A DNA stretch of 64,000 bases from Pseudomonas sp. FP453 (GTDB taxonomy: Bacteria > Pseudomonadota > Gammaproteobacteria > Pseudomonadales > Pseudomonadaceae). Below the pieces are notes generated by a model, which saw only the letters and a list, made by a program, of their open reading frames with translations, did no database searches and was not told where the DNA came from. Location: the NCBI RefSeq assembly GCF_030687495.1, contig NZ_CP117435.1, positions 2,732,501 through 2,796,500 on the forward strand, given 5' to 3'. Positions 43,644 to 46,011 of the stretch are shown here, piece after piece. How positions within the stretch are numbered: the first letter of the stretch is position 1; each line of letters begins with the position of its first letter. A program made the translations under genes and the position numbers.

Positions 43644-43663
43644 CACAGACGCCGAAGATCAAC

Positions 43664-43752
43664 TGTGGGAGCTGGCTTGCCTGCGATAGCGGTGGTCCAG
43701 TTAAAACAACAGTGACTGACCCACCGCTATCGCAGGCAAGCCAGCTCCCACA
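43664..43752. repeat. REPIN with degenerate extra terminus
   Basis: Inverted REP arms in the convergent space between the RimK-like and map genes. A further degraded end (CCAGTTCCCACA) follows to about 43770. Confidence 0.88.
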
Positions 43753-43777
43753 AAAAATCCAGTTCCCACAGGGGGAT

Positions 43778-44533
43778 TCAGGGCGTGGCTTGCAGCGTCA
43801 GCACCTCAAACCCCTGCGCAGTCACCGCCACCGTATGTTCCCATTGCGCCGACAAACTGTTGTCCTTGGTCACCACCGTCCAGCCATCCTTGAGGCTGCG
43901 CACTTTGGCGCCGCCCTGGTTAAGCATCGGCTCGACGGTAAACACCATGCCTTCACGCAGTTCCAGCCCGGTGCCGGGGCGGCCGAAGTGGAGGATCTGC
44001 GGTTCTTCATGCATCTGCCGGCCAATGCCATGGCCGCAGTACTCACGCACCACGCTGTAGCCGTTGGCCTGGGCGTGGCTCTGGATCGCGTGGCCGATGT
44101 CGCCCAGGCGCGCGCCGGGCTTGACCTGGCGGATGCCCGCCCACATCGCCTCGAAGGTCTGTTCCACCAGGCGCCGGGCCTTGGGCGGCACGTTGCCGAT
44201 CATGTACATCTTGCTGGAGTCGGCGATGTAGCCGCCTTTTTCCAGGGTGATGTCGATGTTGATGATGTCGCCGTCCTGCAACACATCCTTGGCACTGGGC
44301 ATGCCGTGGCACACCACCTCGTTGATCGAGGTGTTGATGGAGAAGGGGTAATCGTATTGGCCAAGGCTGGCGGGGCGGGCCTGCAAGTCGTTGCGGATGA
44401 AGGCTTCGACGGCGCTGTCCAGCGCCAGGGTGGAGCGGCCGGCGGCGACAAAGCCGTCGAGCATGTCGAACACCTGGGCCAGCAGGCGCCCGGATTCGCG
44501 CATCACGGCCAGTTGGGCGGCGGTCTTGATCAT
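43778..44533 (-). CDS. map: Methionine aminopeptidase, type I (second paralogue linked to a ParD-like gene)
   Basis: 251 residues from MIKTAAQLAV. All five metal ligands of type I enzymes are present: Asp94 (NIDIT), Asp105 (IADSSK), His168 (GHGIGRQMHEEP), Glu201 (FTVEPML) and Glu232 (QWEHTV), as is the substrate His76 (VVCHGMP). It removes N-terminal Met from nascent proteins. The usual housekeeping map sits beside rpsB/tsf; this copy instead follows a ParD-like gene with a 1-base stop/start overlap (TGATG), so the two are coupled. It is probably an accessory copy. Confidence 0.92.
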   Translation of the reverse strand: MIKTAAQLAVMRESGRLLAQVFDMLDGFVAAGRSTLALDSAVEAFIRNDLQARPASLGQYDYPFSINTSINEVVCHGMPSAKDVLQDGDIINIDITLEKGGYIADSSKMYMIGNVPPKARRLVEQTFEAMWAGIRQVKPGARLGDIGHAIQSHAQANGYSVVREYCGHGIGRQMHEEPQILHFGRPGTGLELREGMVFTVEPMLNQGGAKVRSLKDGWTVVTKDNSLSAQWEHTVAVTAQGFEVLTLQATP

Positions 44534-44733
44534 CAGCTGCGCCCCCGGATCAGGTCGGGCTTGTCCAGCAACAGTTTGTTGATCAGGTCGTTGTAGGCCA
44601 GGTTGGGATTGAGTTCGGCGAGCAGGCCGATCTTGATCCAGAACTCGGCCTGGGCGTTGATGGAGCGGTCCATCGCGGCGCTGGCCAGGCGCAATTGTTC
44701 GTGCAGTTGGTCGGTAATCTTGACGATGCCCAT
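44533..44733 (-). CDS. ParD-like antitoxin-family protein
   Basis: 66 residues from MGIVKITDQL. Ribbon-helix-helix-like N-terminus (IVKITDQLHEQLRLASAAM) followed by SINAQAEFWIKIGLLAELNP. This is the ParD_like family (Pfam describes it as a ParD-like antitoxin). No ParE or other toxin follows; the coupled partner is a methionine aminopeptidase. The promoter region carries repeated CGTATAT(C/G) boxes, consistent with autoregulation by a ribbon-helix-helix protein (inference). Confidence 0.85.
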   Translation of the reverse strand: MGIVKITDQLHEQLRLASAAMDRSINAQAEFWIKIGLLAELNPNLAYNDLINKLLLDKPDLIRGRS

Positions 44734-44753: not shown

Positions 44754-44783
44754 GATATACAAAGCGTATATGTTTCGTATATC
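44754..44783. promoter_or_regulatory. Repeated GATATAC/GTATATC boxes, candidate operator of the ParD-like gene
   Basis: GATATAC (44754-44760) and GTATATC (44777-44783) form an inverted repeat, with a related GTATATG (44766-44772) between them. The boxes are spaced 11-12 bases, about one helical turn, as expected for cooperative ribbon-helix-helix binding. They lie 20-50 bases upstream of the ParD-like start. Confidence 0.5.
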
Positions 44784-44835
44784 GCAAGTAAACCTTTTGT
44801 TGACTCGTCCTGCCGTCGGCGGTTAGTTTCAGGCC

Positions 44836-44904
44836 ATGACTTATCCAACTGTCCGCACTCAGCCAAGCATGATTATTACCGCCATTCCTCATTTGGCGGG
44901 ATAG
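44836..44904 (+). CDS. Leader peptide of the threonine dehydratase attenuator
   Basis: A 22-codon open frame: MTYPTVRTQPS then MIITAIPHLAG, stop TAG. An internal ATG at 44869 would give only the last 11 residues. It contains four Thr and three Ile codons, with ATT-ATT-ACC-GCC-ATT at 44872-44886 directly before and within pairing segment 1. Ribosome stalling at these codons would sense charged tRNA-Ile and tRNA-Thr. Too short for routine gene calling. The ribosome site is weak (CAGG before the first ATG). Confidence 0.65.
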   Translation: MTYPTVRTQPSMIITAIPHLAG

Positions 44905-44949
44905 CGCACGGCTGTACCCAAACCCGCCCTAGAGGCGGGTTTTGTTTTT
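44879..44949 (+). promoter_or_regulatory. Transcription attenuator (segments 1-4) of the threonine dehydratase gene
   Basis: Four mutually exclusive arms: segment 1 CCGCC (44879-44883), segment 2 GGCGGG (44895-44900), segment 3 CCCGCC (44923-44928) and segment 4 GGCGGG (44934-44939). Pairing 1:2 gives the pause hairpin, 2:3 the antiterminator and 3:4 the terminator (AACCCGCC-CTAGA-GGCGGGTT followed by TTGTTTTT). A ribosome stalled at the Ile codons masks segment 1 and frees 2:3. This is the classical amino-acid attenuator layout. Confidence 0.75.
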
Positions 44950-44988
44950 CCGTCTCCAGGGCCCTTTGCACCACGCCAGGAGACACCC

Positions 44989-46011
44989 ATGAGCACCTGC
45001 ACCGCGCCCCACACCGCCGACACTGGGCTGCTTGAGCATTACGTGAAAAAAATCCTCGCCGCCCCGGTGTACGACCTGGCGGTGCGCACGCCCTTGCAAG
45101 CGGCGCCGGCGTTGTCGGCCTTGCTGGGCAATACCGTGCTGCTCAAGCGTGAAGACCTGCAACCGACGTTTTCCTTCAAGATCCGCGGCGCCTACAACAT
45201 GCTGGTGCAACTCAGTGACGTGCAAAAGGCCCGGGGCGTGGTGACGGCCTCGCCGGGCAACCATGCGCAAGGCGTGGCGCTGGCGGCCCGGGAATTGGGG
45301 ATCAAGGCGCGTATCGTCATGCCCGCCACCACCCCGGAACTCAAGGTGCTGGGCGTGCGCTCGCGGGGTGCCGAAGCGGTGCTGCACGGGGCGAGTTTTC
45401 CGTTTGCCCTGGCCCATGCGTTGCAACTGGCCGAGGCCTCGGGTTGCACCTTTGTCTCGCCCTTCGATGACCCGGAGGTGATCGCCGGCCAGGGCACGGT
45501 GGCCATGGAAATCCTGCGCCAGCAACAAGGCCCCCTGGACGCGATCTTTGTACCGGTGGGCGGCGGCGGGCTTATCGCCGGGATTGCCGCGTACGTCAAA
45601 TACCTGCGTCCCGAAGTGCGCATCGTCGGCGTCGAGCCCGAAGGTTCCAGTTGCCTGTTGGCGGCCCTGCGTGCCGGCGAGCGGGTGGTGTTGCCCAGTG
45701 TCGATGGGTTTGCCGATGGCACGGCGGTGGCGCAGGTCGGCGCGTTTGGGTTTGAAATCTGCCGCGATTGGGTGGACGAAGTCATCACCGTCAGCAACGA
45801 CGAACTGTGCAGCGCGATCAAGCTGATCTACGACGACACACGGTCCATCACCGAGCCTTCCGGGGCATTGGCGGTGGCCGGCATTCGCAAGTACGTCGCG
45901 CGCAGTGGTGTCGTTGGGCAGACCCTGGTAGCGATCAATTCCGGGGCGAATATCAACTTCGATAGTTTGCGACATGTTGCTGAAAGAGTGGCTGCCCAAG
46001 CGGTCGTTTAA
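44989..46011 (+). CDS. Threonine/serine dehydratase (catalytic domain only), PLP-dependent
   Basis: 340 residues. PLP lysine Lys64 (PTFSFKIRGAYNM), SPGNHAQGVALAARELG and the phosphate-binding GGGGLIAGIAAY loop identify a fold-type II threonine ammonia-lyase. It converts threonine to 2-oxobutyrate and ammonia, the first step to isoleucine. It lacks the C-terminal ACT-like domains of long biosynthetic IlvA, so feedback by isoleucine at the enzyme is unlikely. The upstream attenuator with Ile/Thr codons suggests control at transcription instead. Serine or catabolic (TdcB-like) use remains possible. Confidence 0.88.
   Translation: MSTCTAPHTADTGLLEHYVKKILAAPVYDLAVRTPLQAAPALSALLGNTVLLKREDLQPTFSFKIRGAYNMLVQLSDVQKARGVVTASPGNHAQGVALAARELGIKARIVMPATTPELKVLGVRSRGAEAVLHGASFPFALAHALQLAEASGCTFVSPFDDPEVIAGQGTVAMEILRQQQGPLDAIFVPVGGGGLIAGIAAYVKYLRPEVRIVGVEPEGSSCLLAALRAGERVVLPSVDGFADGTAVAQVGAFGFEICRDWVDEVITVSNDELCSAIKLIYDDTRSITEPSGALAVAGIRKYVARSGVVGQTLVAINSGANINFDSLRHVAERVAAQAVV

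Follow-up and report, generated by a model that had tools for sequence, protein, structure and literature searches.

Leader-peptide attenuators of the trp, his, thr, leu and ilv type in proteobacteria combine control codons, a set of pairing arms and a T run in front of a biosynthetic gene. In Pseudomonas, Rfam catalogs an RNA family, RF00624 (P9), under the type gene/sRNA and the description "Pseudomonas sRNA". Our search of the open-access literature returned no account of P9 function or of an ilvA/ilvA2 attenuator in Pseudomonas: the terms ilvA, PA1326, threonine and isoleucine are absent from the main text of a survey of P. aeruginosa 3′ ends (PMC8297930), and ilv, threonine and isoleucine are absent from the text searched in a study of premature terminators (PMC2965389). 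We analyzed a stretch of 64,000 nucleotides (the window) from Pseudomonas sp. FP453, the genome of which is a single contig of 6.28 Mb. RF00624 is the sole Rfam family above threshold in the window, with a plus-strand match at 44869-44943 (85.6 bits, gathering score 43) just ahead of ilvA, a gene for threonine dehydratase. The anatomy of this element, its conservation, the co-variation of two of its helices and its promoter-like spacing argue for a ribosome-mediated, isoleucine-responsive transcription attenuator that is predicted to control ilvA, a conclusion in which we place high confidence. The result is a proposed function for an RNA family that is widespread in Pseudomonas and that, although catalogued, had apparently gone unexplained. 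New here are a putative leaderless start of the leader ORF, a ribosome-binding site that can be masked, and related elements before genes for SnoaL-like proteins and P-loop kinases.

The features of the attenuator all lie on the plus strand. The leader ORF (MTYPTVRTQPSMIITAIPHLAG, 44836-44904) has 22 codons, four of them Thr and three Ile, closes with a TAG stop codon (44902-44904), and has a like frame and ending in relatives. The proposed control codons, Ile13-Ile14 (ATT ATT, 44872-44877), are kept in relatives and adjoin arm 1 (CCGCC, from 44879 to 44883). Arm 2 (GGCGGG, 44895-44900) is retained in frame-shifted leaders too. Arm 3 (AACCCGCC, 44921-44928) and arm 4 (GGCGGGTT, 44934-44941) are backed, like arm 1, by the pairing comparison described below, arm 4 also by a terminator scan; sequence and the same scan identify the T run (TTTTGTTTTT, 44940-44949) of an intrinsic terminator. 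An earlier, sequence-only reading of this DNA had described the leader ORF, the four arms, the T run and the contact between the Ile pair and arm 1, and each of these was found where it had been placed. The three pairings that it had proposed (1:2, 2:3 and 3:4) are likewise all possible. Folded in isolation, helices 1:2 and 3:4 reach -10.9 and -15.1 kcal/mol, and the segment 44889-44929, which would be accessible with a ribosome sitting on the Ile codons and arm 4 not yet synthesized, folds at -16.0 kcal/mol with arm 2 paired to arm 3. When arm 4 is included in the fold, the terminator is favored even with arm 1 blocked, so 2:3 has to win by timing. The antiterminator of the trp attenuator likewise wins by timing.

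An exact search of both strands of the window for the four-arm architecture gave a single site, the ilvA leader, and none of 20,000 dinucleotide shuffles of 44780-44988 contained the same architecture. The plain folding energy of 44820-45000 is mildly unusual (z -1.84, equalled by 11 of 200 shuffles). Divergent from the attenuator, the minus strand at 43778-44733 carries a gene for a ParD-like antitoxin (44533-44733) followed by one for a type I methionine aminopeptidase. Beyond this pair, the interval 43654-43760 gave sub-cut-off matches to several animal microRNA models on both strands and is probably a palindromic repeat.

In the mechanism that we propose, the first transcribed base would be the A of the leader's start codon or a base beside it, and ribosomes would begin translation on a leaderless mRNA. 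When charged Ile-tRNA is scarce, a ribosome would stall on Ile13-Ile14 and cover arm 1; arm 2 would then pair with arm 3, no terminator would form and ilvA would be transcribed. When isoleucine is plentiful, the ribosome would either reach the stop codon just past arm 2 or leave in such a way that 1:2 forms, and the resulting 3:4 terminator would release an RNA of about 110 nt, which we take to be the sRNA that Rfam calls P9. On the read-through mRNA, a hairpin just before ilvA could mask the ribosome-binding site and may lower translation.

The downstream gene suits such a signal. ilvA (44989-46011) encodes a protein of 340 aa that, judged by its domain, family and structure-sequence matches, is a threonine dehydratase. 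This enzyme makes the precursor of isoleucine. The protein matches PALP and no other Pfam family at E <= 0.001. It had been described as catalytic-only and lacking ACT domains, and in agreement with this Thr_dehydrat_C (ACT-like, PF00585) gave no match at that threshold. Among the 25 NCBIfam models listed, only TIGR01124 scored above its cut-off (476.3 vs 411.3 bits), and the match spans the first 318 of the 499 positions of the model. The source genome lies near the Pseudomonas fluorescens group, as IlvA of the window shares 98% identity with its counterpart in Pseudomonas sp. KBW05 and 92-93% with those in P. marginalis and P. simiae. FP453 also carries a full-length paralogue with Thr_dehydrat_C, upstream of which no such leader was found. 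The locus presents what is expected of a leader-peptide attenuator, with control codons before arm 1, mutually exclusive pairings, a terminator and a gene serving the amino acid that would be sensed.

To follow the leader through relatives, we picked 80 loci by IlvA protein similarity alone and then sought the leader by pattern, which matched in 57 of them. L147 has the element too, and L095 is truncated inside it. In 20 of the remaining 21 loci a long IlvA is present and neither leader nor terminator was found; the sequence of the 21st, L145, ends before the regulatory region. The pattern required Ile-Ile, so the set of ilvA leaders is selected for it, and leaders found by a covariance model provide a freer check. 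Ile-Ile stands next to arm 1 in 87 of 87 distinct ilvA leaders of this selected set, and the third Ile is kept in 86 of them; among 16 model-found leaders of genus g5, Ile-Met takes the place of Ile-Ile in 8. ATT accounts for 276 of 306 Ile codons in the leaders, as compared with 300 of 2,466 in the ilvA genes at those loci. In 81/87 leaders the frame ends with an AG-stop right past arm 2, and in the other 6 a shifted tail puts the stop one codon later. The N-terminal half is variable in sequence and nearly constant in length. Eight leaders (L053, L059, L107, L113, L114, L121, L123 and L124) have frame shifts past the Ile block and keep both Ile-Ile and GGCGGG, so pairing, and not the encoded peptide, is what preserves arm 2. 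A lack of conserved codons or arms among close relatives had been named as grounds for giving up the attenuator; both are instead conserved.

Relatives of the element also occur before other genes. With the covariance model, we found it in 84 of the family's 198 genomes, representing 7 of 19 genera, and, at the level of the order, in 13 of 194 genomes; loci were examined in 52 of the 70 family genomes outside the genus that had a hit. In seven of eight genomes outside the family, the block of the leader contains 3-5 Ile codons and reads IIIIIP (twice), IIIIP (three times), IILIIP or KIITIA. Downstream of these leaders (L300-L306) lies a kinase-like P-loop gene about 172-181 codons long. The eighth hit, L297 at 33.6 bits, was judged by eye to be due to chance. 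Two of the P-loop kinases were compared with Pfam and matched no family above cut-off; two were compared with NCBIfam and resembled 'DNA topology modulation protein' models at 82.8 and 88.6 bits, below the cut-off of 215. Within the family, a SnoaL-like gene lies between the element and ilvA in 9 of the 40 loci of a further set (L317, L318, L321-L325, L340 and L341) and in L290, and the element heads pairs of SnoaL-like and AAA_33 kinase genes in 6 of those 40 loci as well as in L293 and L307. The SnoaL-like protein matches Bacillus subtilis YybH (2gxf, E 7.4e-40). Within Pseudomonas, a motif-defined start allowed 23 of 30 kinase loci and 3 of 4 SnoaL loci to be examined, and 5 of these 23 kinase genes and all 3 SnoaL-like genes have the leader upstream. 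No such leader precedes the kinase homologue of the FP453 genome.

These leaders bear on which amino acid is sensed, as the sequence-only reading had called the element an Ile/Thr attenuator. Sensing of both amino acids would fit the presence of Thr15 after the Ile pair in 84 of 87 ilvA leaders and of Thr codons beyond position 15 in 76 of 87; in-family leaders before SnoaL-like genes also often read IITT (over arm 1), and L300 is the leader that reads KIITIA. The Thr15 codon, however, lies partly within arm 1 and could be maintained by pairing alone, as could other conserved Thr codons in this position, and the residue is replaced by Ile in two ilvA leaders, by Ser in one and by Ala in L296. 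Thr codons outside arm 1 drift, 11 of the 87 leaders having none other than that at position 15, and Thr is missing from the Ile block in six of the seven leaders from outside the family. Because of this drift we consider isoleucine the likelier signal and a double sensor unlikely. Of the two halves of the earlier proposal, isoleucine is thus the better supported, with the Ile pair kept throughout a set that was selected for it.

The sequence upstream of the leader suggests where transcription would begin. A -35-like element (TTGACT, 44800-44805), of which TTGAC is conserved upstream of ilvA leaders, and a -10-like element (TAGTTT, 44824-44829) are separated by an 18-nt spacer, and the latter lies 6 nt before the leader ATG; promoter spacing predicts a transcription start at the A of that ATG (44836). 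We compared 107 distinct 45-nt sequences upstream of ilvA leaders. TTGAC starts 35-38 nt ahead of the ATG in 104 of them, a TA-type hexamer (sought in the last 20 nt only) ends 6-8 nt ahead of it in all 107, and position -1 is occupied by C in 105 sequences and by T in 2. Such spacing suits a promoter whose start falls on the first base of the leader. A transcription start mapped past 44904 had been the other stated ground for giving up the attenuator; the conserved promoter-like signal lies ahead of the leader. Of 132 leaders (ilvA and other genes together), 4 have a Shine-Dalgarno 4-mer, vs 30 of 30 testable ilvA starts. With spacing that sets the start on the ATG and a Shine-Dalgarno sequence mostly lacking, the leader ORF is probably leaderless. 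A promoter scan that was not anchored on the ATG gave gaps spread over 2-30 nt, a mean score of 8.64 vs 7.02 in shuffles, and a median reached by 6.9% of shuffles; a strict promoter scan of the window found none. Read by eye, nine in-family leaders before SnoaL or kinase genes are without TTGAC, and the seven out-of-family leaders have TTGAC with A or T at -1.

Leaderless initiation depends on the state of the ribosome. This favors an explanation in which the attenuator reports any slowed early translation, whether caused by antibiotics or by leaderless initiation itself, and not isoleucine. In P. aeruginosa PA14, ilvA2 rises strongly under the ribosome inhibitor tobramycin (24.7-fold by RNA-seq and 7.68-fold by Ribo-seq, PMC8120321 Table 2), which would suit general slowing as well; it is indirect evidence that fits a ribosome-sensing attenuator, from one drug and with many genes changed. 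Against general slowing, Ile-Ile is kept (in a set selected for it) while the N-terminal half of the leader drifts, the out-of-family relatives carry runs of Ile codons, and the enzyme makes an isoleucine precursor. We therefore rate this explanation as improbable, somewhat more so than double sensing. ilvA2 has also been named as a putative target of the sRNA SrbA (PMC5542712).

A third explanation is that P9 acts chiefly as an sRNA in trans and that its position before ilvA is secondary. Rfam's own classification favors this, released attenuator RNA can act in trans, as described for Sinorhizobium rnTrpL (PMC7298713), and at L190 (G030, about 1100-1560) P9 and its leader precede an internally deleted ilvA remnant that retains little beyond its own start and the last portion of the catalytic part. 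The genomic distribution of P9 speaks against it. In Pseudomonas, P9 matches at E <= 0.001 in 109 of 149 genomes and above cut-off in 105 of 149, as compared with 0 of 14 control genomes, and the FP453 genome has one copy. Of the 108 above-cut-off copies, 89 are just upstream of (<=400 nt from) ilvA genes among the 150 best IlvA matches listed, and 16 of the other 19 precede further ilvA genes (one of them a remnant and one in pieces). The remaining three have other genes downstream and unchanged geometry. The leader codons, arms and promoter-like spacing are moreover conserved together, and we give a primarily trans-acting role only a slim chance.

Several weaker matches were considered in this survey. 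Further P9-like hits in the FP453 genome (the best at 26.1 bits, E 0.01, plus six weaker ones) were rejected; inspection by eye assigned six to terminators or coding sequence, and one weak hit is the same terminator on the opposite strand. Hits L046-L050 in the genus, at 28.7-34.5 bits, looked by eye like chance, and a minus-strand match to Hrs1 (21.9 bits vs a cut-off of 56.4) is probably the palindrome read backwards. In G007, contig C18, a second P9 match below cut-off (100632-100695 of the contig, in L043; 38.9 bits) begins 15 nt past the first. At L193 (G126), ilvA past P9 matches in separate pieces, and the stretch contains 188 N.

We assessed the pairing of the arms in an alignment of 27 sequences, 21 ilvA leaders and 6 leaders before other genes, with L113 left out. 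For 1:2 plus 3:4, 98.3% of cells are standard pairs, as against 33.6-60.7% in slid controls. Two-sided changes occur in three pairs; 5 of 500 shuffles had as many, and none of the 500 equalled the co-variation score. As read by eye from the alignment, six of the seven two-sided cells come from the six non-ilvA relatives; among ilvA leaders the arms are nearly invariant. In RNAalifold, helix 1:2 gains a sixth pair, which has three two-sided changes. Arms 2 and 3 can pair in 162 of 162 cells, and 2:3 forms in all 82 distinct ribosome-free segments that end at arm 3. In the 27 sequences, helix 2:3 has no co-variation and no two-sided change, and shuffles pair equally well, so the case for 2:3 rests on conservation. 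Co-variation of the arms, suggested earlier as a check, is therefore found for 1:2 and 3:4, with 2:3 conserved only. Together with leader conservation, frame and arm geometry, this supports the attenuator reading. There is next to no prospect that the strong intrinsic terminator between the inferred promoter and ilvA is constitutive, serving upstream or antisense transcription with no switch, since it lies downstream of a conserved promoter-like signal and ahead of the very gene that it would shut off, and arms 1 and 2 and the leader ORF are kept across genera.

Read-through transcripts may be subject to a further control. GTCTCC (44952-44957, plus strand), identified by folding and alignment, is the 5′ arm of a hairpin that could mask the Shine-Dalgarno sequence, and GGAGAC (44979-44984, plus strand), the ilvA Shine-Dalgarno itself, is the 3′ arm. 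We examined 92 distinct ilvA leaders with short spacing and GGAG ahead of the start codon. GGAG is fully paired in the minimum-energy fold of 90 of these, with a median z of -1.57 vs simple shuffles. In 25 aligned sequences, 82.7% of the hairpin's cells pair, which 4 of 500 shuffles reached and which compares with a slid maximum of 52.9%. Its co-variation score was matched by 14 of 500 shuffles and its two-sided cells by 19; its two-sided pairs were matched by 106 and its further pair types by 402. We regard these values as moderate support from co-variation for the hairpin. The idea that a freed arm 4 opens the hairpin was rejected, as at least three of the four bases stay paired in 91 of 92 leaders.

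The sequence-only reading had also supposed that, with the isoleucine-sensing ACT domains gone, control may have moved from the protein to the mRNA. To compare gene lengths we called an open frame of <440 aa short and any other long; PF00585 was scored by profile for the window gene and the paralogue in its genome, and all other genes were classed by length. Of the 150 best IlvA matches in the genus, 89 have P9 (64 short and 25 long) and 61 do not; all of the latter are long, and no short gene lacks P9. Elsewhere in the family, all 24 attenuated ilvA genes with a complete frame from genera g12, g9 and g6 are long, and in genus g5 they are short in 15 of 16 loci. P9 also precedes ilvA1-like genes in nine genomes (85-91% identity to the ilvA1 of FP453) and, in a tenth, an ilvA1-like gene whose IlvA match is in pieces. 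With 25 of the 89 attenuated ilvA genes listed for the genus being long, the supposed transfer of control does not hold as stated, and we rejected replacement of the ACT domain by the attenuator because full-length attenuated genes are common. That so many attenuated ilvA genes are long suggests that the attenuator is probably older than the domain loss, i.e., that it was there first and that the regulatory part was lost later in some lineages.

By parsimony, length state changes 3 times on a 51-row tree and 4 times on a 75-row tree, neither of which gives direction. P9 state changes 4 times on both, a count that includes mis-scored rows: L095, which has no sequence upstream of the terminator, was scored as P9-lacking in the 75-row tree, and L147 has the element yet was scored as lacking it on both. 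L084 was excluded from the trees because its ilvA frame ends at 248 aa. On this basis, short ilvA appears to have arisen about three times, always with the attenuator among the genes examined, although three losses are too few for strong statistics. These roughly three apparent losses, all in attenuated genes, offer a natural test of whether gene-level feedback can replace allosteric feedback.

Genes that share the attenuator point to possible new partners of threonine dehydratase, and the company they keep suggests that the SnoaL-like protein and the P-loop kinases could serve isoleucine or threonine metabolism. We speculate further that P9, rather than being an sRNA gene, is the founder of an order-wide group of mostly leaderless, Ile-sensing attenuators, reused as a small regulon (ilvA, P-loop kinases, and YybH/SnoaL-like genes, which lie between attenuator and ilvA in several genera), and that it enabled repeated loss of the allosteric domain. 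This is a tentative proposal that we hold to be somewhat short of an even bet. If it is true, the unexplained partners would belong to threonine deamination or to Ile-tRNA stress.

How, then, does the element compare with described systems? Like attenuators of the trp, his, thr, leu and ilv type, it has control codons by arm 1, the 1:2, 2:3 and 3:4 pairings and a stop codon near arm 2. Unlike these, P9 leaders are mostly without a Shine-Dalgarno sequence (the 4-mer in 4/132), the locus adds a hairpin able to mask the ribosome-binding site of the gene, and the element stands before ilvA alone or SnoaL-ilvA. In Sinorhizobium meliloti trpL, the attenuator RNA rnTrpL has its 5′ end at the leader ATG (PMC7298713), as predicted here, although that system concerns tryptophan in alphaproteobacteria and its 5′ end was reported, whereas ours is deduced from spacing. 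The ilvBNC attenuator of Corynebacterium glutamicum is likewise a branched-chain one with a short leader peptide, a terminator and an antiterminator, but it belongs to another gene and phylum and its control codons are for Leu and Val (PMC11857589). The polycysteine leaderless short ORFs described in mycobacteria are also amino-acid-responsive attenuators, with cysteine as the amino acid there. The closest counterpart is RF00624 itself, which is the same element, matched over the full length of its model at about twice the gathering score. It differs in that Rfam presents P9 as an sRNA, whereas we read it as an ORF-containing leader whose ATG has promoter-like spacing, and P9-related elements also stand before other genes.
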